Source of the DNA: Verrucomicrobiaceae bacterium
GTDB lineage: Bacteria > Verrucomicrobiota > Verrucomicrobiia > Verrucomicrobiales > Verrucomicrobiaceae
NCBI GenBank assembly: GCA_016795485.1
Contig: JAEUHM010000044.1
Coordinates: 248,001 to 312,000 of the forward strand
Length of the DNA: 64,000 nt
Reading direction: 5' to 3'
How positions within the stretch are numbered: position 1 is the stretch's first letter; each line of letters starts with the position of its first letter. The position numbers and the translations under genes are program-made. This document shows, one piece after another, positions 29,120-40,033 of this stretch. The notes under the pieces were generated by a model. It saw only the letters and a list, made by a program, of their open reading frames with translations, was not told the origin of the DNA and made no database searches.

Positions 29120-29596
29120 ATGGAGACGGTTTACATTGAAACGACGATTCCCAGCTACCTGACGGCTCACCGCAGCCGTCAGGAGCCGATGGCGTCGCAT
29201 CAGAAGCTGACGCACGACTGGTGGAAGGATCAGCGGCACAAGTTTCTGCTCTACAGCTCTGTTCTCGTCCGGTTGGAAGCCTCGCGCGGTGACGCCAATG
29301 CCGCCCAGCGACGTCTCGCCTACCTCAATGGGATCACGGAACTCGACGTGCTGCCTGAAACCGTTCAGCTTGAAGCCGATTTGATTCGTTTGTTTCAGCT
29401 TCCGCCTCGGGCCGCCGCAGACGCGGGTCATCTGGCGATGGCGATCCTTCACCGGATGGATTACCTGCTCACCTGGAACTGCACGCATCTGGCAAACGCC
29501 ACTTTGCAGAAGGAACTGATGGACTACTGTCTCTACCACAAGCTGCACCTCCCCATCATCTGCACCCCTGAAACCCTCATCACCCAGGCATCATGA
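29120..29596 (+). CDS. PIN-domain VapC-like toxin of a type II toxin-antitoxin pair
   Basis: 158 residues. N-terminal VYIETTIPSYLTAH is the PIN variant in which the first acidic residue is in IETT. Further conserved parts are SSVLVRLEASRGD, PPRAAADAGHLAMAILHRMDYLLTWNCTHLANA (acidic Asp then the WNC-H-x-A-N motif). PIN domains are metal-dependent RNases; VapC toxins usually cut tRNA or rRNA. Its stop overlaps the next ORF by 4 nt (ATGA), and that ORF has the size and context of an antitoxin. Toxin first, antitoxin second is the reverse of the usual vapBC order but common for this subfamily. Activity is inference. Confidence 0.82.
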   Translation: METVYIETTIPSYLTAHRSRQEPMASHQKLTHDWWKDQRHKFLLYSSVLVRLEASRGDANAAQRRLAYLNGITELDVLPETVQLEADLIRLFQLPPRAAADAGHLAMAILHRMDYLLTWNCTHLANATLQKELMDYCLYHKLHLPIICTPETLITQAS

Positions 29597-29826: not shown

Positions 29827-29892
29827 AGCCAAAGCCCAAGGAAAGGCGCTTTGGAAGCGCCTCCGAACAGGTCGAGTGCTGATAGCCACCTT

Positions 29893-30046
29893 GGACTGCG
29901 GCAGCCTGCTGCCGCCAAAGTCTCCCGGTCACCGAAAAGCCCCTCTGCTGTCGCCAACGCGATAGCGCCTTGGCGGAACATCGTCTTGGAACATTCGACG
30001 GCCAGCAGGCTGGCCTCCCGAAAGCGGCAGCAGGCTGCAGCAGTCC
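29893..30046. repeat. REP-bounded element, copy a
   Basis: Begins GGACTGCGGCAGC-CT-GCTGCCGC (8-bp hairpin, 2-nt loop) and ends with GGCCAGC-AG-GCTGGCC (30000-30015) then an imperfect GCGGCAGCAGGCTGCAGC and CAGTCC. Its ends are thus inverted copies of each other. The interior (about 90 nt) matches copies c and d closely. Located between the toxin-antitoxin pair and the Fic gene. Confidence 0.85.
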
Positions 30047-30285
30047 ATGTAGTCCATGTCACGCTCGGATTCGATCGAAGCATGGGGACAGGAGAATGGA
30101 TTCGCCGGATTCTTTTGTCCCCATGCTTCTGTCGATTCTGTCTCCGCTTGTTTCCTGAGTGGCTCGACCCTTCCGAGGTGCGTCAGGAGGTCTGAGTCCG
30201 GCGCGAGAGGCGTCCCAGGGGAACGGTTGAGCCCTTGGTATCTCTAGCGGCGCTCCTCATCCTCGCCTTCGAGGGTGAGAGCCAT
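29893..30285 (+). repeat. Long direct repeat, left copy (REP element a plus flank)
   Basis: Matches 32472-32880 in the same orientation. Shared stretches after the REP element include CATGTAGTCCATGTCACGCT (near 30045), GAAGCATGGGGACAGGAGAA, TTTCCTGAGTGGCTCGACCC, TTCCGAGGTGCGTCAGGAGG and CCCAGGGGAACG. No convincing reading frame runs through it. The remainder of the gap to the Fic gene (30286-30388) holds the palindrome described separately. Confidence 0.8.
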
Positions 30286-30366: not shown

Positions 30367-30388
30367 GTTTTTGCCGATTTCTTTACAC

Positions 30389-31462
30389 ATGAGCTTCCAC
30401 CTTGAGCCTCTACCGCTGCCAGCCTCCATCGAGTTGGAGACTCCGGCGGTGCTGCGGCAGTTGGCTCGGTCGCATCGGCATCTGGCCGAACTCAAAGGCG
30501 CAGCGGCGACCATTCCGAACGAGGCCATCCTCATCGACACCCTCGCTTTGCAGGAGGCCAAGGACTCCTCCGCCATCGAAAACATCATCACCACCGAGGA
30601 CGAGCTTTTCCGCACCGACTCCGCGCCTGGCGGCTACGGCAGCTTGGCGGCGAAGGAGGTACATCGCTACGGAGCCGCTCTGAAGGTCGGCTTCGAGCGT
30701 GTGCGCCAGCAAGGCTTTCTGAGGCTCGAGGACGTGCTCGCGGTGCAGGCCACGCTGGAGCAAAACCGCGCCGGATTACGCAAGCTCCCCGGCACCGTGT
30801 TGAAGAATGCCGAGACAGGAGCAGTCGTCTATGAGCCGCCGCAGGATGCCGTGCGCATCGAGCAGTTGATGGACAACTTCATCACCTGGCTAAATCGCAG
30901 CGAGCCCGGCGATCCCGATCCACTCGTGCAGATGGCCGTGCTGCACTGGCAATTCGAGAGCATCCACCCTTTTTATGACGGCAATGGCCGCACAGGGCGC
31001 ATCTTAAACCTCCTACACCTCGTCATGCACGGCCTGCTTGATCTTCCCGTGCTCTACCTCAGCCGCCACATCGTGCGGAACAAGGCCGACTACTACCGCG
31101 GCCTCCAAGGCGTGCGCGAGCATGGTGCCTGGGAGGCTTGGGTGCTCTATATCCTCCGTGCCGTCGAGGAGACCGCCAAGGAGACGCTCACCCAGGTCAC
31201 CGGCATCCGCCAGCTCATGCAGGAGACCAAGCAACGCCTGCGTTCCCAGCACCCGAAGCTCTACAGCCAGGAACTGCTCAACAACCTTTTCCGTCACCCC
31301 TACACTAAAGTCGAGTTCATCGAGCACGACCTCGGCGTCTCACGCCCCACCGCGATGAAGTATCTCGACACCCTGCACACCGCCGGCTTCGTGAAAAAGA
31401 CCAAGCGGGGCCGCACCAACTTCTACATCAACGAACCGCTGTTCGCGCTGCTCGGGCGGTGA
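30389..31462 (+). CDS. Fic-domain protein with inhibitory helix and C-terminal winged helix
   Basis: 357 residues from ATG 30389 (a TTG 18 nt upstream is less likely). Fic proteins usually transfer AMP from ATP to a hydroxyl on a target protein. The N-terminal autoinhibitory motif (S/T)xxxE(G/N) is SSAIEN at about residues 60-65, so it is class II, intramolecularly inhibited. The catalytic loop is HPFYDGNGRTGR at about 193-204, fully intact, with the flap region before it (LRKLPGTVL). The last roughly 80 residues (QELLNNLFRHPYTKVEFIEH, then SRPTAMKYLDTLHTAGFV) form a winged helix-turn-helix, as in Fic proteins of the SoFic type. It sits in a cassette with a RAYT transposase and REP repeats. 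Targets are unknown. Confidence 0.95.
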   Translation: MSFHLEPLPLPASIELETPAVLRQLARSHRHLAELKGAAATIPNEAILIDTLALQEAKDSSAIENIITTEDELFRTDSAPGGYGSLAAKEVHRYGAALKVGFERVRQQGFLRLEDVLAVQATLEQNRAGLRKLPGTVLKNAETGAVVYEPPQDAVRIEQLMDNFITWLNRSEPGDPDPLVQMAVLHWQFESIHPFYDGNGRTGRILNLLHLVMHGLLDLPVLYLSRHIVRNKADYYRGLQGVREHGAWEAWVLYILRAVEETAKETLTQVTGIRQLMQETKQRLRSQHPKLYSQELLNNLFRHPYTKVEFIEHDLGVSRPTAMKYLDTLHTAGFVKKTKRGRTNFYINEPLFALLGR

Positions 31463-31665: not shown

Positions 31666-32244
31666 TTACTCCCCGTCCTCGGCAGCGATTTCATCAAACG
31701 GAAAACTCGCCACGGTCTTCACCCACGCAGCCGTGGCTTCGCGTTTGAAGTCAGCCGCGCTGCACCACCGCCACTGCGAGGCCAGCGGCACCAGGCCATG
31801 GTGCTTGGGATTCTGATGCACATAGTTCAGCCGGGCCAGGTAGCTCTGCGGATAGGTCAGATGCGTCTCCCGATAGTTCTGCCAAAGCCGCGTCCGCCCT
31901 GGTGTGCCGTCTTCCGTATTCAAACGCTTCGTCGCCAGGCTGTGCAGCTTTTGCAGCACGACCCGCAGTGTGTCCGCGTCCCCCGGAGGACTATGCGCCA
32001 CCACATGGTAATGATTTGAGAGAACCGCCCATGCCTCCAGCTTCCATCCCGCTTCCGCAAAGCCCTCCAGCAGCATCTGGAGAAACCAATCGCGACGTTC
32101 TGGAGTATGCAAAAGAGGCTTCTTCTCGCGAGTCCGCGCCGTCACAAAATACACCCCGCTCTCCGCCAGCCGATGCGGTGGCGCATGAGGCCAGTGACGG
32201 GTGCCGCGAAGGCACTCTTCATCGTTGGGCAGATCAGGCATCAT
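31666..32244 (-). CDS. REP-associated tyrosine transposase (RAYT, Y1/HUH superfamily)
   Basis: 192 residues from the tandem ATGs at 32244/32241; the longer frame upstream only translates REP DNA. The single-stranded DNA transposase signature is present: the HUH pair in LSNHYHVVAHS (about residues 77-86) and the candidate nucleophile Tyr141 in YVHQNPKHHGLV. The early part has GVYFVTARTREKKPLL, and WRWCSAADF near the C-terminus is typical of the family. RAYTs are domesticated IS200-like enzymes that nick and move REP palindromes. Here one REP element lies directly downstream and two lie directly upstream, the classic REPtron layout. The catalytic residues look intact, so it may be active. Confidence 0.93.
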   Translation of the reverse strand: MMPDLPNDEECLRGTRHWPHAPPHRLAESGVYFVTARTREKKPLLHTPERRDWFLQMLLEGFAEAGWKLEAWAVLSNHYHVVAHSPPGDADTLRVVLQKLHSLATKRLNTEDGTPGRTRLWQNYRETHLTYPQSYLARLNYVHQNPKHHGLVPLASQWRWCSAADFKREATAAWVKTVASFPFDEIAAEDGE

Positions 32245-32306
32245 GGATAAAGGATGTTCAAAGCCCGCCCTACCCGTCAAGTATCGAATGGAAGGAACAA
32301 CAACAT

Positions 32307-32460
32307 GGACTGCGGCAGCCCGCTGCCGCTTTTCCGAGGCAGCCTGCTGCCGCCAAAGTCTCCCGGCCATCGAAAAGCCCCTCGGCTGACGCCAACGCGA
32401 AAGCGCCTTGGCGAAACTTCATCTTGGAACATTCGACGGCCAGCAGGCTGGCCTCCCGAA
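32307..32460. repeat. REP-bounded element, copy c, upstream of RAYT
   Basis: Begins CATGGACTGCGGCAGCC with its hairpin, has a second hairpin GGCAGCCTGCTGCCGCC, an interior like copy a (TCTTGGAACATTCGACGG), then GGCCAGCAGGCTGGCC. The right end is truncated: after CTCCCGAAA it runs into ACATGAAACATGGACTG of copy d. It is therefore in tandem with copy d. Confidence 0.85.
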
Positions 32461-32471
32461 ACATGAAACAT

Positions 32472-32649
32472 GGACTGCGGCAGCCTGCTGCCGCTTTTCC
32501 GAGGCAGCCCTGCTGCCGCCAAAGTCTCTTGGCCATCGAAAGCCCCTCGGCTGTCGCACACGCGAGAGCGCCTTGGTAAAACATCGTCTTGGAACATTCG
32601 ACGGCCAGCAGGCTGGCCTCCCGAAAGCGGCAGCAGGCTGCCGCAGTCC
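32472..32649. repeat. REP-bounded element, copy d, complete with perfect terminal inverted repeats
   Basis: GGACTGCGGCAGCCTGCTGC at the left end is matched by its exact reverse complement ending in CAGTCC at 32649, a perfect terminal inverted repeat of about 23 bp. Internal hairpins GGCAGCCCTGCTGCC and GGCCAGCAGGCTGGCC are present. This is the most complete of the four copies (178 bp). Confidence 0.88.
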
Positions 32650-32880
32650 ATGTAGTCCATGTCACGCTCGGTTCGACCGAAGCATGGGGACAGGAGAATG
32701 GATTGGCCTGCTTCTTTTGTCCGCATTCTTCTGTCGATGCTGCTGAGCTTGTTTCCTGAGTGGCTCGACCCTTCCGAGGTGCGTCAGGAGGTCTGAGCCT
32801 GACGTGAGAGGCTTCCCAGGGGAACGCTTGCGCCCTTGGAATCTCGGGCGGCGCGCCTCATCCCCGCCCTCGAAAGTGCC
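32472..32880 (+). repeat. Long direct repeat, right copy (REP element d plus flank)
   Basis: Direct counterpart of 29893-30285. Shared words include CATGTAGTCCATGTCACGCT, GAAGCATGGGGACAGGAGAA, TTTCCTGAGTGGCTCGACCC and CTTCCGAGGTGCGTCAGGAG. Differences are scattered substitutions and a 24-nt extra hairpin in the REP part. Together the copies bracket Fic and RAYT, about 2.6 kb apart. Confidence 0.8.
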
Positions 32881-33072
32881 GCAGGGGCTCGATGAGTGGC
32901 TGGAACGTCAAGGGTGGATTGGGGATACCGGGATCTCCGGTCCCGAAAACTGTGATACGATTTGCTGACCTGGAAGTGCCCGCTTCCGCTGAAGCTGCTG
33001 CTAGTCCGAAACATGATCCAACTGGCTTATTGGTGGTCAAATGATCCACGGCAGATTATTGAATCCATCCTG
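32881..33072. other. Gap after the REP region, no gene seen
   Basis: About 190 bp between the long repeat and the first membrane-protein gene. It contains a small imperfect hairpin (ACCGGGATCTCCGGT near 32926-32940). Base composition falls to more AT-rich DNA at about 33000. A frame starting at 32962 or 33013 could extend the next gene, but shows no signal peptide or conserved look. Confidence 0.4.
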
Positions 33073-33717
33073 ATGTCCGAAAAAACGCCAACCCAATCGA
33101 ATAGCTCGTCATGTTGTATCCCGTCCGGGATAAAAGCCTTGGTTTCATGGTCATTCACGGGGGTTTTGGCTCACAATCGAACCATTCAGTCTTCCTATTT
33201 TTGGCTGTTCTTTGTTCCTGTCGCCGCGAAGGCGCTGAAAGGCCTTGATCAGAAGTTGGTCTTTCAGATCTTCGATCAGAGTGTGGTTGTGCACCCCCAT
33301 CTTCCATTTAACTGGCTGGCCTTCTTCTTTTCGGCGCTTGCGTTCGCAATCGGCACCGTTCTCTATTTCGCATTCTGCCCACCAGTAACCCGAGATTTCA
33401 GAACTTGGGTTGACTACCGTGATTCAGGACGAGGAGAATGGTATATCCTGGACCAGTTGATTGATCTGCGTCAAATACCAGAAAAGGCAGTCAAAGAATT
33501 AAACGGCACTGTGTCATTCTTGACCACCGGGACCACCTATAGCTGTGCGATCAGTGACAAAGCTGTCGCTACTGTGTTTTGGGTTGTCCGCGATCTACAG
33601 AATCATCGCCGAATCTGTCCGCTCATCTTCACATTCTTGGCATTTCTGCTCGGCACAGTCTTAATTGGGTTTGTCATCATTGAGAATATTCGATTTGTAT
33701 TGAGCTGCCTCATCTGA
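33073..33717 (+). CDS. Orphan membrane protein with a cytoplasmic central domain
   Basis: 214 residues from the ATG at 33073 (MSEKTPTQSNSS); starts at 32962 or 33013 are possible. Three likely membrane segments: SSYFWLFFVPVAAKALKG, WLAFFFSALAFAIGTVLYFAF, and PLIFTFLAFLLGTVLIGFVI. About 80 residues lie between the second and third. The stretch WSFTGVLAHNRTIQSSYFWL reminds me of small uncharacterised membrane proteins in scattered genomic islands; that is memory, not a search. The gene is more AT-rich in third positions than its neighbours, suggesting recent transfer. Function unknown. Confidence 0.7.
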   Translation: MSEKTPTQSNSSSCCIPSGIKALVSWSFTGVLAHNRTIQSSYFWLFFVPVAAKALKGLDQKLVFQIFDQSVVVHPHLPFNWLAFFFSALAFAIGTVLYFAFCPPVTRDFRTWVDYRDSGRGEWYILDQLIDLRQIPEKAVKELNGTVSFLTTGTTYSCAISDKAVATVFWVVRDLQNHRRICPLIFTFLAFLLGTVLIGFVIIENIRFVLSCLI

Positions 33718-33776
33718 TGACGATTGCCTGAGTCTCTAACGGCTTCTCATTTCGGAACCGCCTTTGTCTGTCTGTA

Positions 33777-34145
33777 ATGGATACTTCATTCATTCTCCTT
33801 TTCTTTGGCGGACCCGTCATCGCTATTGTTGGCTTTTTTGCCTGTCTCGTTCCGCACGTTCGCCCACAGCGCTTGAGTCGGACCATTGGAGCGCTTGGAG
33901 TTGCCACCTCGCTGCCCATTGGTGCATCTATCTTAACAAACACAGCTTTCCCGCTGCTGATTCTTCGCCCTGGAACCGTCTTTTTGGGCCTGCTGACGGC
34001 TATCTCGTATCTTGTGCTCAGCCGAAAGCTTGGCTTGCCACTCCGAGAGTCAGCGGCTGCGATGGCATTACTCGTCGCTTCGCTTTGGGATGCAATATCA
34101 CTGGCCATCATAATGACCCCCGGTTTTGGCGGCGCATATTGCTAG
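33777..34145 (+). CDS. Small four-helix membrane protein of unknown function
   Basis: 122 residues, almost all hydrophobic. Segments are FILLFFGGPVIAIVGFFACL, ALGVATSLPIGASILTNTAF, ILRPGTVFLGLLTAISYLVL and ESAAAMALLVASLWDAISLA. No recognised family and no signal peptide. It follows the previous membrane protein by 59 nt in the same direction and shares its lower GC content, so the two may form one transferred unit. Function unknown. Confidence 0.6.
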   Translation: MDTSFILLFFGGPVIAIVGFFACLVPHVRPQRLSRTIGALGVATSLPIGASILTNTAFPLLILRPGTVFLGLLTAISYLVLSRKLGLPLRESAAAMALLVASLWDAISLAIIMTPGFGGAYC

Positions 34146-34233
34146 AAGAAACAAAAATTCAACAAAACGACCTCTAGCCCCGCGAATCAGCCAATCTTCG
34201 TCCCGCGAAGACCCACCCCACTCCCCACGTTTC

Positions 34234-36849
34234 ATGTCCCACATGAAACCATTCCTCGCGCTCTTCCTCTCCCTCACCGCCGCGAACGCAGCAGACCTCA
34301 CCTTGCTCGACGCGGGCAAGACGGACTACCAGATCGTTTTGCCGGATGTGACACCGAGTGCGGCCATCGACGCGAGTCTTCAGCAGACGGCGCGACTGCT
34401 CCAGACGGCGTTTTTGGCGAACAAGGCGGAGATCGCCATTGTGCGTGAAAAGGAGCGGGATGGCTCCAAACCGGCGTTGATGCTCGGGAACACGGATTTG
34501 GCGCTGAAGAGCGGCGTGGAGGTGACGAAGCTGCGGGATTGGAGCTATGTGCAGCGGGTGGTGGGGCGGGATGTGATCCTCGCGGGGAATGATCAGGCCT
34601 CGAAGGCGAAGGTGGAGAATGCGCGGAGGCCGAACTGGGATCGCGTGGGCACGGTGAAGGCGGCGGTGGACTTTGCGCGGGAGTTTCTTGGCGTGCGTTT
34701 CCTGTATCCTGACCTGCCGGGCTACACGCCGGTGAGCGGCGCGGCGAAGATCGACCTCATGAGCTCGCCTGCGATCGAGTTCCTACCGATGAAGACGATC
34801 ACGGTGCCAGACACGCTGAACGTGATGAAAACGCCGCTGCTGCGGGTGAACTCGGCGCATCCAGCGGGCGGTTCGTTTTATGATCTCGCGCACAATCGCT
34901 TCCCGCGTGTGGATGAGCAGTTCGGCGGGCACACGTGGGAGCGGGCGGTGCCGGCGGAGTTGTTTGCGGAGCATCCAGAATACTTCGCGCTGATCAGCGG
35001 CTCGCGTTTGAAGCCGGAGGGCAACGGGCAGTATTGCCTGTCGAACGCCGACGTGCAGGAGCGCATCTACCGTGACCTCGTTTCGCACCTGGAGCGCGGC
35101 TTTGACAGCGTGGATCTCGGCCAGCCGGACGGCTTCCGCGAGTGCCAGTGCGAGAAGTGCGAGGCGCTCTACGGCACGGGCAAGGACTGGTCGGAGAAGA
35201 TCTGGATCTTCAATCGCGAGGTGGCGCAGCGCGTGGAGAAATCGCATCCCGGCGGGCAGATCACGATGATGAGCTACATCCTCACCGCACAGCCGCCGAA
35301 GACGTTCACGAAGTTCCCCGCGAACACCTGCATCATGCTCACCGGCACGAACGAGGAGGACATCGCCCCGTGGCGCGGCATCGAGGTGCCACGCGGCTTC
35401 ACCGGCTACGTCTATAACTGGTGCCCGAACCTCGGCACGCGCTACACGCCGATGCGCACGCCGGGCTACATCGAGTTGCAGGTGCAAAGGCTCGCCGCCG
35501 CGCGCATTCAGTCGCTGTATCGCGACGGCCCCGGCCAGCTCTTTGGCCTCGAAGGGCCGGTGTATTACACCATGGGCCGCATGTTTGATGATCCGGCGAA
35601 CAACCACGCGAAGGACCTCATCCCCGAGTTCTGCGAGGGCGCGTTCCCGGACAAGAGCATCGCCTTCTACATGCGTGCCTTTTACGACGAGCTGTATCAC
35701 GCCATCGCGCTCTACTCCGACCACATCGGCACGCGCACGGATGTGTGGACCTACAAACCGCTGCCCACCGATGCTCGCGGACGCAAAACCGTGCAGGACC
35801 CGTTTCAACTCATCGCCTTTCTCTACACGCCGCGCGTGCTCGCCGCGATGGAGGGCCACCTCGCGCAGTCCGAGCAGCTCGCCCGCACACCGAAGATCAA
35901 AACACGCCTCGCACTCGTCCGCGCCGAGTTTGATTACCTGAAGCACTTCGCGAAGGTCGTGCATCTGCATCAGGCCTGGCAGATGGCACCGGATCAGCCC
36001 TCGCTGCATCGCCTGCTCGATGCCATCGACGCGCGAAACGCCTTCATCGCCACGCTTTACGTCAAAGGGCATCAAAAGGAGTGGAACCATGTCCTCTTCC
36101 CCTTTGCCGGCCACGACGCGAAGCATCTGCAACTCGCCCACGACGGCTACCAGGAGCCGTATGCCAACACCTGCTTCAACTGGGACACGCAAGCCATGCG
36201 CCACGCTCCGCCGCCCGGCCTCAAGAAGCTCACCATCGCCAAAACGACCGCCAAACTCACGCTCGACAGCCCCGAGTGGCAAAACGCCGCCGCGCACGAA
36301 CTCACGCTCCTCCCACCGCTGCACACACTGCCGCGCAAAACGACGATTCGCCTGCTTTACGACACCAACGCCCTCCACATCCGCGCCGAGGCCGAACTGG
36401 GCGATGAAACGAAATTCACCGCCTACAACCGCGACCGCGTTTTGACGAACCAGGAGGCCTTCGATGTCTATCTGGCTCCGAATCCTGCCCAGCCGATGTT
36501 TTACCGCTTCACCCAAGGTGCCAACCCCGCCAGCCGATACGACGCCCTGAACGGTCGCATCACCGACGTCATGGACCCGCGCCACGGCAAGGACGATCCC
36601 ACCTGGAACGGTGACTGGCACAGCGAAACCCGCGTCGATACGAAGACAAAGCGCTGGCACGCGCACCTCGTGATTCCCTTCCAAACTCTCGGTGTCGAAG
36701 CCCCAACCAAAGGCATCACCTGGAAAGCCAACTTCGGCCGCAACCATGCCTTGCCACGCGAAGTCATCGACCGCGCGATTTGGTCCTCCTCACTCACCAT
36801 CACCCGTATGGCAGACACAAGCGTGATGGGCGAGATCGTGTTTGATTGA
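34234..36849 (+). CDS. Secreted DUF4838 protein (putative glycoside-hydrolase-like), first of a tandem pair
   Basis: 871 residues from the ATG at 34234 (MSHMKPFLALFLSLTAANAA, signal peptide). N-terminal region up to about residue 170 resembles the alpha-glucuronidase/hexosaminidase-type accessory domain (ALMLGNTDLALKSG, FAREFLGVRFLYPDLPGYTP). The central DUF4838 domain carries GFRECQCEKCEALYGTGKDW near residue 300, with the CxCxxC motif, and YMRAFYDELYHA later. The C-terminal 200 residues are a sugar-binding-like beta domain (TIRLLYDTNALHIRAEAEL, FRFTQGANPASRYDA-like strand). Codons are strongly GC-ended throughout, which also creates long antisense frames. Family activity is not established; a role in polysaccharide hydrolysis is inferred. 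Confidence 0.88.
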   Translation: MSHMKPFLALFLSLTAANAADLTLLDAGKTDYQIVLPDVTPSAAIDASLQQTARLLQTAFLANKAEIAIVREKERDGSKPALMLGNTDLALKSGVEVTKLRDWSYVQRVVGRDVILAGNDQASKAKVENARRPNWDRVGTVKAAVDFAREFLGVRFLYPDLPGYTPVSGAAKIDLMSSPAIEFLPMKTITVPDTLNVMKTPLLRVNSAHPAGGSFYDLAHNRFPRVDEQFGGHTWERAVPAELFAEHPEYFALISGSRLKPEGNGQYCLSNADVQERIYRDLVSHLERGFDSVDLGQPDGFRECQCEKCEALYGTGKDWSEKIWIFNREVAQRVEKSHPGGQITMMSYILTAQPPKTFTKFPANTCIMLTGTNEEDIAPWRGIEVPRGFTGYVYNWCPNLGTRYTPMRTPGYIELQVQRLAAARIQSLYRDGPGQLFGLEGPVYYTMGRMFDDPANNHAKDLIPEFCEGAFPDKSIAFYMRAFYDELYHAIALYSDHIGTRTDVWTYKPLPTDARGRKTVQDPFQLIAFLYTPRVLAAMEGHLAQSEQLARTPKIKTRLALVRAEFDYLKHFAKVVHLHQAWQMAPDQPSLHRLLDAIDARNAFIATLYVKGHQKEWNHVLFPFAGHDAKHLQLAHDGYQEPYANTCFNWDTQAMRHAPPPGLKKLTIAKTTAKLTLDSPEWQNAAAHELTLLPPLHTLPRKTTIRLLYDTNALHIRAEAELGDETKFTAYNRDRVLTNQEAFDVYLAPNPAQPMFYRFTQGANPASRYDALNGRITDVMDPRHGKDDPTWNGDWHSETRVDTKTKRWHAHLVIPFQTLGVEAPTKGITWKANFGRNHALPREVIDRAIWSSSLTITRMADTSVMGEIVFD

Positions 36850-36901
36850 GATGGGTGCCATGAAGGCCGCAAAACTAAATCCGGCTCGACGTTTCTTCGA
36901 G

Positions 36902-39900
36902 ATGAAAAGCCTCCTGGCCTTCTTCCTCTCCTCCTCCGCACTCGCCCAGACTTTCATCGTCGAAAACGGCCAGCCTTGCGCTGAGATCGTCATCGCGGAA
37001 AAGCCTTCGCGTATGCAGCGCATGGCGGCGCATGAGTTCCGCAATCAGATCGAGAAGATCAGCGGTGCACGCTTGCCCATCGTCACGCAGCCTTCGGGTA
37101 AGGCGGTCAAAGTGTTCATTGGAGCGAGCGATTTGTGCCCGGTGAAGGCTGAGGGTCTCAAAGACGGCGCGTATCGCATCGCCAGCGGCGCAGATTGGAT
37201 GGCGCTTATCGGCGAGGACACGGAGTTTGAGCCCACGGGGCCGTTTGCACGCAACAACAGCGACATCCCGCGCGCGCAGGCCGAGTGGGAGCAGATCGTC
37301 GGTGCACCGTATGGCATGCCGATGCCCGGTTTGTATAAAAACCGCCTCAAACTGCCCGCAGACACCGGCAAGCCCGACGGCGTGCCCACCGCGAAAAACG
37401 AAGCCTTCGAGATCTGGGGCCTCGATGAACGTGGCAGCTTCAATGCCGTTTGCGGCTACCTCCAACGGCTCGGCGCACGCTGGTATCTGCCTGGCGAACT
37501 CGGAGAGGTGCTGCCATCGCTCAAAACTATCGAGCTGCCGAAACTGGATGAAACCGTGCGGCCGGACTTCCGCCTGCGGCAGTTCAATTTCCGCTTCAGC
37601 ACCGCTGGCTACGACACTTCGATGTGGGCCATGCGCCTCGGCACTCGCAACGACGAGCGCCTGCAAATCGCCCACGGCATGGCGACGATGACGAATCGCG
37701 AAGAAGTCTTCGCGAAGCACCCGGAGTGGTTCGCGCTCTACGGCGGCAAGCGCGACTTCCGCCCCGGCGACTCGAAGTGCCAGCTCTGCTACTCGAACGA
37801 CGAGCTCTTTCAGGAAACGCTGCGCTGGGCGCGGGCGCAGCTCGACACGTTTCACTTTGAAGCCGTCTCCATCATGCCGCCGGACGGTTACACCTCCATT
37901 TGCCAATGCGAGAAGTGCAAAGGCAAGGACTCGCCCGAGCGCATCGACCGCGGCCTGCTCAGCGATTATGTGTGGGACTTCGTGAACCGCGTGGCGAAGG
38001 AGATCGCGAAGACGCACCCGAAGGCGAAGGTGCTGAACTGCGCCTACGGTGTTTACACCCTGCCACCGCTGAAGATCGACAAACTGGAGCCGAATGTGCA
38101 GGTCTGCATCGTCGGTGGTCGCAGGCCGCTGAACGTCGCCGCATCGAAAGCCGAAGGCGAGGCCGCGCCTGAGGCCCTGCAAGCCGCGTGGGTGAAAAAG
38201 ACCGACAACCCGCTGCTCATCTTCGAAAACTATCCGTTCACGGATCGCGGCTGGTATCTGCCCGCCTTCAGCGCTCCCGCACTCGTGGACAGCGTGAAAG
38301 CCACAAAGGACAAATCCATCGGCGAGGACATCTGGCTCACCGTGCGGCAGGATTTCGACAAAGTGGGCATCGGCTTCAATCACTTCCTCGTCTATTTCAC
38401 CGCCCGCGCCTACTGGGGCGGCCAGGACGTGAGTGCCGATGCCATGCTGCGTGAGTATTGCCGCCTTTTCTCCGGCCCCGCCGAGCAGGAGATGCACACC
38501 TTCTTCAAAGCCTGCGAAGCGAACTGGCTCGCCAGCGGCGAAGACAAAGCCAAGGCTGATGAAATCCTCGCCCTCTTCGACAAAGCGAAGACGAAAGCAG
38601 ATGCAGAGAGCGTGTTTGGCAAACGCATCGCCCTCATCGACGACTTCCTCAAAGGCCTGCGCATGAAGTCCGTGCAGCTCGGCCAGAAACGCGGCCCCGT
38701 GCCCACCTTGCGGCTCGTGGGCGATGCGAAGGGCGTCGTGATCGATGGCAAACTCGATGACGACTACTGGCAAAAGTGCCCCACCGCCGCCACTGGCCGC
38801 CTGCGTGAACTGCAAACCGGCCGCACGCCCACTTTTGGCACCTCGTTCAAAGCCGGCTGGCAGGCAGGCCACCTCGTCTTCGCCATCCGCTGCGATGAAC
38901 GACGCGGCGACAAGCCCCGCATCACCACCACTCGCGACGACGACCAGGCTGCGTGGCACGGCGATGTCATCGAACTGGAAATCGCCACCGAGACGCACTC
39001 TTACTACTCCATCGCCATCAGCCCCGCCGGGCATGTCGTCGATCTCGACCGCGGCGCACCGCGCAGCCAGTGGTTCACCTGGGATGCGAAAGCGAAGGTC
39101 GCCACGCACATCGCCGATGATCACTGGACCGTCGAGATCAGCCTGCCCGTCACCAGCGATGAAAATGATCCGCTGCATCAGATCATCGGTCGCAAGCCCA
39201 TCGTCAGCCTCCCGTGGCACTTCAACCTCTGCCGCCAGCGCATCCGCGACGACGGCGTGGAGCACAGCGCCTTCTCTCCCACCGGCGCGGAGAGTTTTCA
39301 CGAGCCGATGAAGTTCGCCCGCCTCTACGACGGCAAGTCGCACCAGTTCGACGCCGATCCCAGCGTCACCGATTTTGTCATCGCCTTCCGCGATGCGCAG
39401 CAAAAGCGTGTCCCCGCCGCGCTGCTCGCCCTCGCCGCCGGAAAAGTAACCCCGTTCCAAAAAGCCGCCGCCCTCGAACAAGCCGCCATCTGGGACAAAA
39501 AGGCCACCTTCATTGACCAGATCCCCATCGAAGCCGTCAAGATGACCGCGCAGATGCAGAACCTGCTCGCCAACTTCAAAGCGCCCGAAGTCTTGAAGCA
39601 GTTCGGCACCGAAGACATCACGCAATGGCCCTTCTGGAAGCGTGGTGACGGTTTCCATCATCGCGGCCGCGCCTACTCGATCGCCAAAAACGGCGAAAAA
39701 GCCGAATCCGACCTCAGCGCCGCTTTGGAGTGGATTGGCGATCCACGCACTCGCGAGTCCGTTTTGCTCGTGCAGGCCCAAAACCGCGAATTGAACCTCA
39801 AAAACGACGAAACCGCCCTTCAAGCCTACGAAGCCATCCTCGAAGGCAAAACCCGGATCGGTGGTGCCGATGAATACTCCGCCCTCCAAGGCATCGCCCG

Positions 39901-40033
39901 CATCCAAACGCGAAAAGGCCAGTTCGACGAAGCCTTGAAGACCCTGAACCGCGCCGAACCGGAAAAACTCCAAGGCGTGTGGAAAACGAACTTCGAGAAA
40001 TCCATCGAAGCCGTGAAGCAGGCACGGAAGTAA
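36902..40033 (+). CDS. Secreted DUF4838 protein with CBM9-like and TPR-like C-terminal regions, second of the pair
   Basis: 1043 residues from the ATG at 36902 (MKSLLAFFLSSSALAQTF, signal peptide); an in-frame start at 36842 would overlap the previous gene. The N-terminal part (RMAAHEFRNQIEKISGARLP, then VFIGASD) is the hexosaminidase-type domain. DUF4838 has the CxCxxC motif in SICQCEKCKGKD near residue 334. From about 610 a CBM9-like domain opens with VIDGKLDDDYWQKC and contains HGDVIELEIATETHSYYS. The C-terminal 130 residues have TPR-like helices (ALQAYEAILEGKTRIGGADE, QFDEALKTLNRAEPEKLQG). Paralogous to the gene before it but with more domains. Likely secreted and acting on complex glycans. 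Confidence 0.88.
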   Translation: MKSLLAFFLSSSALAQTFIVENGQPCAEIVIAEKPSRMQRMAAHEFRNQIEKISGARLPIVTQPSGKAVKVFIGASDLCPVKAEGLKDGAYRIASGADWMALIGEDTEFEPTGPFARNNSDIPRAQAEWEQIVGAPYGMPMPGLYKNRLKLPADTGKPDGVPTAKNEAFEIWGLDERGSFNAVCGYLQRLGARWYLPGELGEVLPSLKTIELPKLDETVRPDFRLRQFNFRFSTAGYDTSMWAMRLGTRNDERLQIAHGMATMTNREEVFAKHPEWFALYGGKRDFRPGDSKCQLCYSNDELFQETLRWARAQLDTFHFEAVSIMPPDGYTSICQCEKCKGKDSPERIDRGLLSDYVWDFVNRVAKEIAKTHPKAKVLNCAYGVYTLPPLKIDKLEPNVQVCIVGGRRPLNVAASKAEGEAAPEALQAAWVKKTDNPLLIFENYPFTDRGWYLPAFSAPALVDSVKATKDKSIGEDIWLTVRQDFDKVGIGFNHFLVYFTARAYWGGQDVSADAMLREYCRLFSGPAEQEMHTFFKACEANWLASGEDKAKADEILALFDKAKTKADAESVFGKRIALIDDFLKGLRMKSVQLGQKRGPVPTLRLVGDAKGVVIDGKLDDDYWQKCPTAATGRLRELQTGRTPTFGTSFKAGWQAGHLVFAIRCDERRGDKPRITTTRDDDQAAWHGDVIELEIATETHSYYSIAISPAGHVVDLDRGAPRSQWFTWDAKAKVATHIADDHWTVEISLPVTSDENDPLHQIIGRKPIVSLPWHFNLCRQRIRDDGVEHSAFSPTGAESFHEPMKFARLYDGKSHQFDADPSVTDFVIAFRDAQQKRVPAALLALAAGKVTPFQKAAALEQAAIWDKKATFIDQIPIEAVKMTAQMQNLLANFKAPEVLKQFGTEDITQWPFWKRGDGFHHRGRAYSIAKNGEKAESDLSAALEWIGDPRTRESVLLVQAQNRELNLKNDETALQAYEAILEGKTRIGGADEYSALQGIARIQTRKGQFDEALKTLNRAEPEKLQGVWKTNFEKSIEAVKQARK

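Follow-up and report, generated by a model that had tools for sequence, protein, structure and literature searches.

A horizontally acquired membrane-protein cassette in a chromosomal exchange hotspot of a Verrucomicrobiaceae bacterium, with a possible role in phage exclusion or defence

Introduction

Superinfection-exclusion membrane proteins of temperate phages are a known class. The membrane protein family described here, which we call the A family, resembles them in that one relative is a lone small membrane gene lying antisense in a Mu-like phage, but no sequence or fold match links it to a known member. A second likeness is to NACHT/STAND-type NTPases that occur with membrane proteins: one A relative overlaps a NACHT-type gene (locus L021), and two others (L004, L053) overlap genes for other P-loop NTPases. 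Unlike in such pairs, the A gene of our window (the whole 64,000-nucleotide stretch of DNA that was analysed) is without an NTPase of this kind, and the family is absent from PADLOC.

P2-like phages are described in a 2022 paper as holding defence genes between gpA and gpQ (PMC9122126). The slot reported here is likewise short (1.3 kb, versus ~1–5 kb there) with a similarly high turnover of accessory genes, and one A relative, together with a NACHT gene, lies beside a P2-type gpA. In contrast to the phage hotspot, our slot lies on the chromosome, where its neighbours are a RAYT/REP block and a DUF4838 gene; phage genes were not seen, and the comparison covered three species. SoFic is described as a single-gene phage-defence protein acting by AMPylation (PMC12249575). 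Its counterpart here (30371–31462) is a neighbour that lies outside the cassette and is unrelated to A or B.

Results

A foreign cassette in an exchange hotspot

The segment of interest and its borders comprised the following features:

32920..34207, no strand: A+B cassette of 1,288 bp, which the sister species G009 and G016 lack; A and B are its only genes
33013..33717, plus strand: ORF A, a 234-aa membrane protein with three helices and a ~80-residue soluble domain
33777..34145, plus strand: ORF B, a membrane protein of 122 aa with four helices, separated from A by 59 bp
32823..32919, no strand: interspersed repeat bordering the cassette on the left, with counterparts at L047:2806-2956, L046:4321-4470 and L046:5198-5333
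34208..34260, plus strand: right border of the cassette, where homology resumes (G009 at 34208, G016 at 34225; DUF4838 ATG at 34234)
34234..36849, plus strand: DUF4838 protein, the conserved flank of the hotspot

Leftward, homology between the window and G009 ended at 32919, and it resumed at 34208; thus, the window-specific segment is 32920–34207. The left-border repeat is common to all three species, and the DUF4838 neighbour has orthologues in G016 (87%) and, in two pieces, in G009 (88% and 81%). Two DUF4838 proteins stand in tandem at 34234–40033; of 38 genomes searched, 19 gave some match to the first.

We compared 17 window proteins with the regions around the DUF4838 orthologue in seven relatives. 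None of these regions yielded a match to A or B, and in L048 to L052 this protein comparison matched only DUF4838 proteins near the slot. The same slot is occupied in G009 (L047) by a gene for a PIF1-like helicase (GC3 0.54; Pfam E 1.7e-27) and in G016 (L046) by one for a ClpP-like SDH protease (GC3 0.58; E 4.9e-23). Because other low-GC3 genes fill the slot in both sisters, we concluded that it is a gene-exchange hotspot, with the same borders and different cargo in three species. The lone low-GC3 helicase gene (L047:1139-2626) also gave partial PADLOC matches to the candidate systems PDC-S68 and PDC-M16A. Beside the slot in G016, a VapBC-type pair (DUF2281 and PIN) lies between two copies of the repeat.

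The original prediction had called the pair less GC-rich than the genes on both sides, and base composition bore this out: GC3 was 0.54 for A and 0.53 for B, versus 0.81 for the Fic gene and 0.82 and 0.79 for the DUF4838 genes. The GC minimum of 128 consecutive 500-bp blocks fell at 33001–33500 (0.476), and the cassette (GC 0.500) ranked second or better among 1,255 windows of the same size. Part of this contrast arises because the flanks (0.59–0.62) are GC-richer than the window mean of 0.561; ORF B alone, at 0.537, does not stand out within the wider window. Searched as single proteins against 96 genomes, A and B were found in their own genome only (0/95 relatives each). The low GC3 relative to neighbours, the lack of matches in all 95 relatives and the other low-GC3 cargo of the sisters together showed that A and B form a foreign, horizontally acquired cassette. 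The original prediction is supported in that the genes are accessory and foreign.

The block to the left of the cassette

Four features were found on the left-hand side:

32298..32661, no strand: REP-like palindromic block, which together with the RAYT lies directly left of the pair
31666..32370, minus strand: RAYT (REP-associated tyrosine transposase); G009 counterpart L047:3421-4104, 78% aa identity
30371..31462, plus strand: SoFic-type Fic protein of a known anti-phage gene family (PADLOC E 1.1e-114)
29120..29596, plus strand: PIN-domain protein, Pfam score just below the cut-off; 97% orthologue in G016

The RAYT matched profile NF047646 with E 1.5e-22 at 80.0 bits, which equals the curated cut-off, and it lies directly left of the pair, in keeping with the earlier placement directly after a REP/RAYT block. 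Similar palindromes occur elsewhere in the same genome (C3:75887-76064, C8:32860-33037); a 607-bp query located them on only three of its contigs, few for a RAYT-bearing genome.

The SoFic gene belongs to the same variable block, 1.5 kb left of the cassette, so that a defence-annotated gene does stand among the neighbours, as had been asked of this locus. Fic and PIN are common to the window and G016, at 97% each, and the RAYT is common to the window and G009, with the gene order changed. Two direct repeat copies of ~390 bp, ~90% alike, surround the SoFic and RAYT genes (29887–30277 and 32466–32878), and the block could be exchanged or lost by recombination between them.

Gene A and its protein

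ORF A is certainly a gene, because relatives were found in other phyla with E values of 3e-27 and 1e-21, both relative to the candidate stretches of the genome-contig scan. It starts at the ATG at 33013, or alternatively at that at 33073, and not at 33000 as first given; the end stated for B, 34145, was correct. A promoter/terminator scan of 32600–34400 detected no promoter-like site on the plus strand upstream of ORF A.

The three helices first proposed agree with two clear hydrophobic segments and a weaker first one, which corresponds to an AlphaFold helix. The first segment exceeded the threshold in five of eight relatives (L004, L005, L013, L018, L054). On the four-row alignment, the AlphaFold helices of ORF A lie at 61–76, 101–121 and 201–233; the model adds a beta hairpin (82–93) between the first two, and more helices are predicted between the last two membrane helices. 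Mean pLDDT was 67 for this model and 71 for the Nitrosomonas relative, indicating moderate confidence. The ~80-residue soluble part lies between membrane helices 2 and 3, and we infer that it is cytoplasmic because lysines follow helix 2 in relatives.

The family motif reads SSYFWLFFVPxxAK ... LPFSW ... CP. We defined membership by SSYFWxxxVPxxAK after a conserved Trp, LPFSW, CP after helix 2, and an Asn and a Val in the last helix. ORF A shows every one of these features, with LPFNW as a variant of LPFSW. W46, P69 and P123 were invariant in all nine aligned rows, and 14 columns were invariant in all seven strong ones.

Distribution of the A family

Two A relatives came from the genome-contig scan, one in a Desulfococcaceae bacterium and one in Nitrosomonas sp. 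Nm34, which belong to two further phyla beyond the window's own. Profile searches were then made over genome sets that partly overlap. Two of 370 genomes were positive (the source genome and the new G170); three of 297 (one source and two weak matches, left out of the count); four of 387 from the window's own phylum (its own, strong matches in G784 and G1011, and one with stops, uncounted); and two of 299 (one source and a weak match in G1172). Among 100 genomes of G096's family, only the source was positive. Viral contigs searched with A, B or A relatives yielded one distinct contig, carrying an A relative, and plasmid and phage records searched with A or its relatives gave one weak match only.

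Counting that of the window, this family of three-helix inner-membrane proteins has seven strong members. Two weak ones, L030/L053 at E 1.3e-4 and L054 at E 0.02, were kept for their aligned motif; the family is sporadic across phyla. Candidates L015 and L016 (E 1.4e-4 and 7.1e-4) were discounted as short stretches in longer frames, and L020/L024 for internal stops.

Neighbours of the A relatives

A P-loop NTPase gene overlapped the A gene at three of nine loci by raw count (L004, L021 and the weak member L053), and no NTPase stood beside A at the other six, window included. In L004, A overlaps by 4 bp the 3' end of an Sll1717-family ATPase gene (NCBIfam E 8.6e-40), the first half of which is missing near the contig end; a literature search on these ATPases found no paper. 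In L021 (G170), the overlap is 1 bp, with the second of two frames after a NACHT domain (Pfam E 1.3e-6). The two frames are probably one gene, because the first runs into a stretch of N. A P2-type gpA gene adjoins this set, which by analogy with P2-like phages would lie at the gpA–gpQ site; gpQ itself was not found there. In L053 (G1172), the weak A relative overlaps by 10 bp the gene for an 839-aa protein with the Walker A motif GEIGEGKS, and the other end of that gene is overlapped by an HI1420-type antidote gene. The 839-aa protein (L053:3823-6342) had no Pfam or NCBIfam family over the cut-off and is a candidate new type of NTPase. The NTPase genes overlapped in this way are of three kinds, which hints that A stays the same while the sensor, the NTPase, varies.

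The remaining settings varied. L005 is a Mu-like phage (transposase, late activator, endolysin and terminase by PHROGs) in which a lone A gene runs antisense to the phage genes between late activator and endolysin. In L003, an A relative has a Zot gene on either side and a toxin-antitoxin pair of HI1419/HI1420 type next to it. L054 is a Roseibium plasmid with a weak member after two small hypothetical genes. In L022 (G1011), another gene (L022:6356-7795) begins 78 bp downstream of the A relative; its 479-aa product matched TPR weakly, shows two N-terminal hydrophobic segments by eye and is a possible further partner. In L023 (G784), the A relative stands among small same-strand genes, 4.9 kb from a TIR protein. 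The same-strand run of L023:1-14000 encodes a TIR-TPR protein, a GNAT-like and a pentapeptide-like one (each judged by eye) as well as several small membrane proteins, and looks like a store of accessory genes. We considered an integron array for its one-directional cassette look but do not favour it, as the gaps between genes showed no regular repeats.

Gene B and its only candidate relative

ORF B contains four hydrophobic segments, as first described. Its codon score was the best of the three plus-strand frames yet close to that of the reverse frame, its codon statistics were near background, and an open frame of 133 aa overlaps it on the opposite strand. The sole candidate relative, L023:5453-5857, is weak, with 27% identity end to end and a common ending, GFxGAxC; it lies 1.8 kb from the A relative of G784. 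As a single comparison, BLASTP gave E 0.002. Whole-sequence shuffles gave Z 3.6 to 5.9, and shuffles keeping local composition reached the score in 3 to 13 of 1000. This gene was picked out while reading the ORFs of the region, so that the resemblance is a selected one, and the sequence comparison is suggestive of kinship.

A two-row B profile run over 240 genomes matched only G000, G784 and one further sequence at chance level. L028 (E 6.9e-4) was discounted, lying inside a 402-aa frame. A tblastn search with the window's B protein had no match in the A-family loci (L030/L053 and L054 by ORF list only), and ORF B and its candidate relative had none in plasmid records. Both membrane-protein ORFs exist as predicted, with homologues across phyla for A, but B is less certain as a gene because its only relative is weak. 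Constant co-occurrence of A and B failed: one of eight other A-family loci (L023) has a B-like gene, of weak resemblance, within the stretches covered. A strict two-gene module is not supported, since A usually occurs without B.

Comparison with known families and folds

The A family is absent from Pfam, NCBIfam, PHROGs and PADLOC; judged by profile libraries alone, it is an undescribed family. Neither A nor B matched any PADLOC-DB 2023 family at E up to 10, and no toxin or antitoxin domain family in Pfam or NCBIfam passed the cut-off for either. A match of A to MASE11 fell below the cut-off (Pfam E 0.024), and those of ORF B in PHROGs and NCBIfam were at chance level. Sequence searches of PDB returned nothing below E 0.08, and Foldseek against PDB and BFVD no match at E 0.001 or less. 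The best VIA-align Z, 7.7, lay under the level that the tool advises trusting for helical proteins. We do not read the absent fold match of A and B as a new fold.

Discussion

The explanation that we favour, tentatively and at somewhat under an even chance, is that A and B are acquired, mobile-element-derived membrane protein(s) that would most likely serve phage exclusion or defence, with no NTPase partner here. In this view, A would act at the membrane as part of a phage-exclusion or abortive-infection system. An NTPase, if one is encoded, may serve as sensor or switch, with A as the effector, altering the membrane or blocking entry. The window's A might work by itself or have B as its partner in the membrane; it could be a constitutive exclusion factor or respond to a trigger not visible in DNA.

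Four lines of evidence point this way. The copy in a Mu-like phage, that beside a P2-type gpA and that between Zot genes argue for a family carried by mobile elements, and SoFic in the block, together with the PIN gene and VapBC-type genes, argues for a defence setting. The foreign origin of the cassette and the overlaps with NTPase genes also count in favour. We counted against a defence function that no NTPase stands beside A, that no known defence family was matched, that the moderate-confidence models gave no informative fold match, that some members are weak and that B has no functional support. The defence suspicion of the original prediction is, on balance, likelier than before for SoFic, the mobile-element relatives and the NTPase pairing. 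The defence or exclusion function, the membrane-effector role and any partnership of A with B are what we infer from these settings.

Second in standing, and on the unlikely side, is that the hotspot carries A and B as independent passengers, with unrelated or no functions at present, which an accident of insertion made neighbours. A occurs without B in most loci, the hotspot swaps genes of unrelated kinds and the codon statistics of B are near background, all of which would fit; but the cassette consists of A and B only, on the same strand and 59 bp apart, and in G784 a weak B-like gene lies 1.8 kb from an A relative.

Rather doubtful is a more specific form of the effector idea, in which the A family would be an interchangeable inner-membrane effector for different sensor NTPases (NACHT, Sll1717-family and unclassified P-loop) on phages and islands, and the window an NTPase-free version with B in the partner's place.

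We think it improbable that A is an orphaned effector that lost a former NTPase partner and is now decaying or tolerated. The overlapping NTPase in three of nine family loci and none beside the window's A would suit such a loss, but this A is intact, full length and conserved in its motifs, and a lone copy persists in a phage, where an unused gene would be expected to go. More improbable still is a toxin-immunity pair, one membrane protein being toxic and the other neutralising. The small size of both membrane genes, the mere 59 bp between them, the PIN and Fic genes of their block and the VapBC-type genes in that of the sister recall such pairs; however, A is found without B in the phage and several genomes, and neither protein matched a toxin-antitoxin family in Pfam or NCBIfam. 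Least credible is that B is a chance open frame and A alone matters, for although the 133-aa opposite-strand frame, the reverse-frame codon score and the single weak relative favour this, B has four hydrophobic segments, the best plus-strand codon score and an end-to-end relative sharing its GFxGAxC ending.

To return to acquired membrane proteins of exclusion or defence, this reading of the A family is directly testable through the family motif, the pairings with NTPases and the borders of the hotspot. If it is true, an unnamed membrane family would point, in several phyla, to candidate phage-defence loci missed by profile libraries, and the REP/RAYT-bordered chromosomal slot would be a place to seek further candidate defence genes in this bacterial family.
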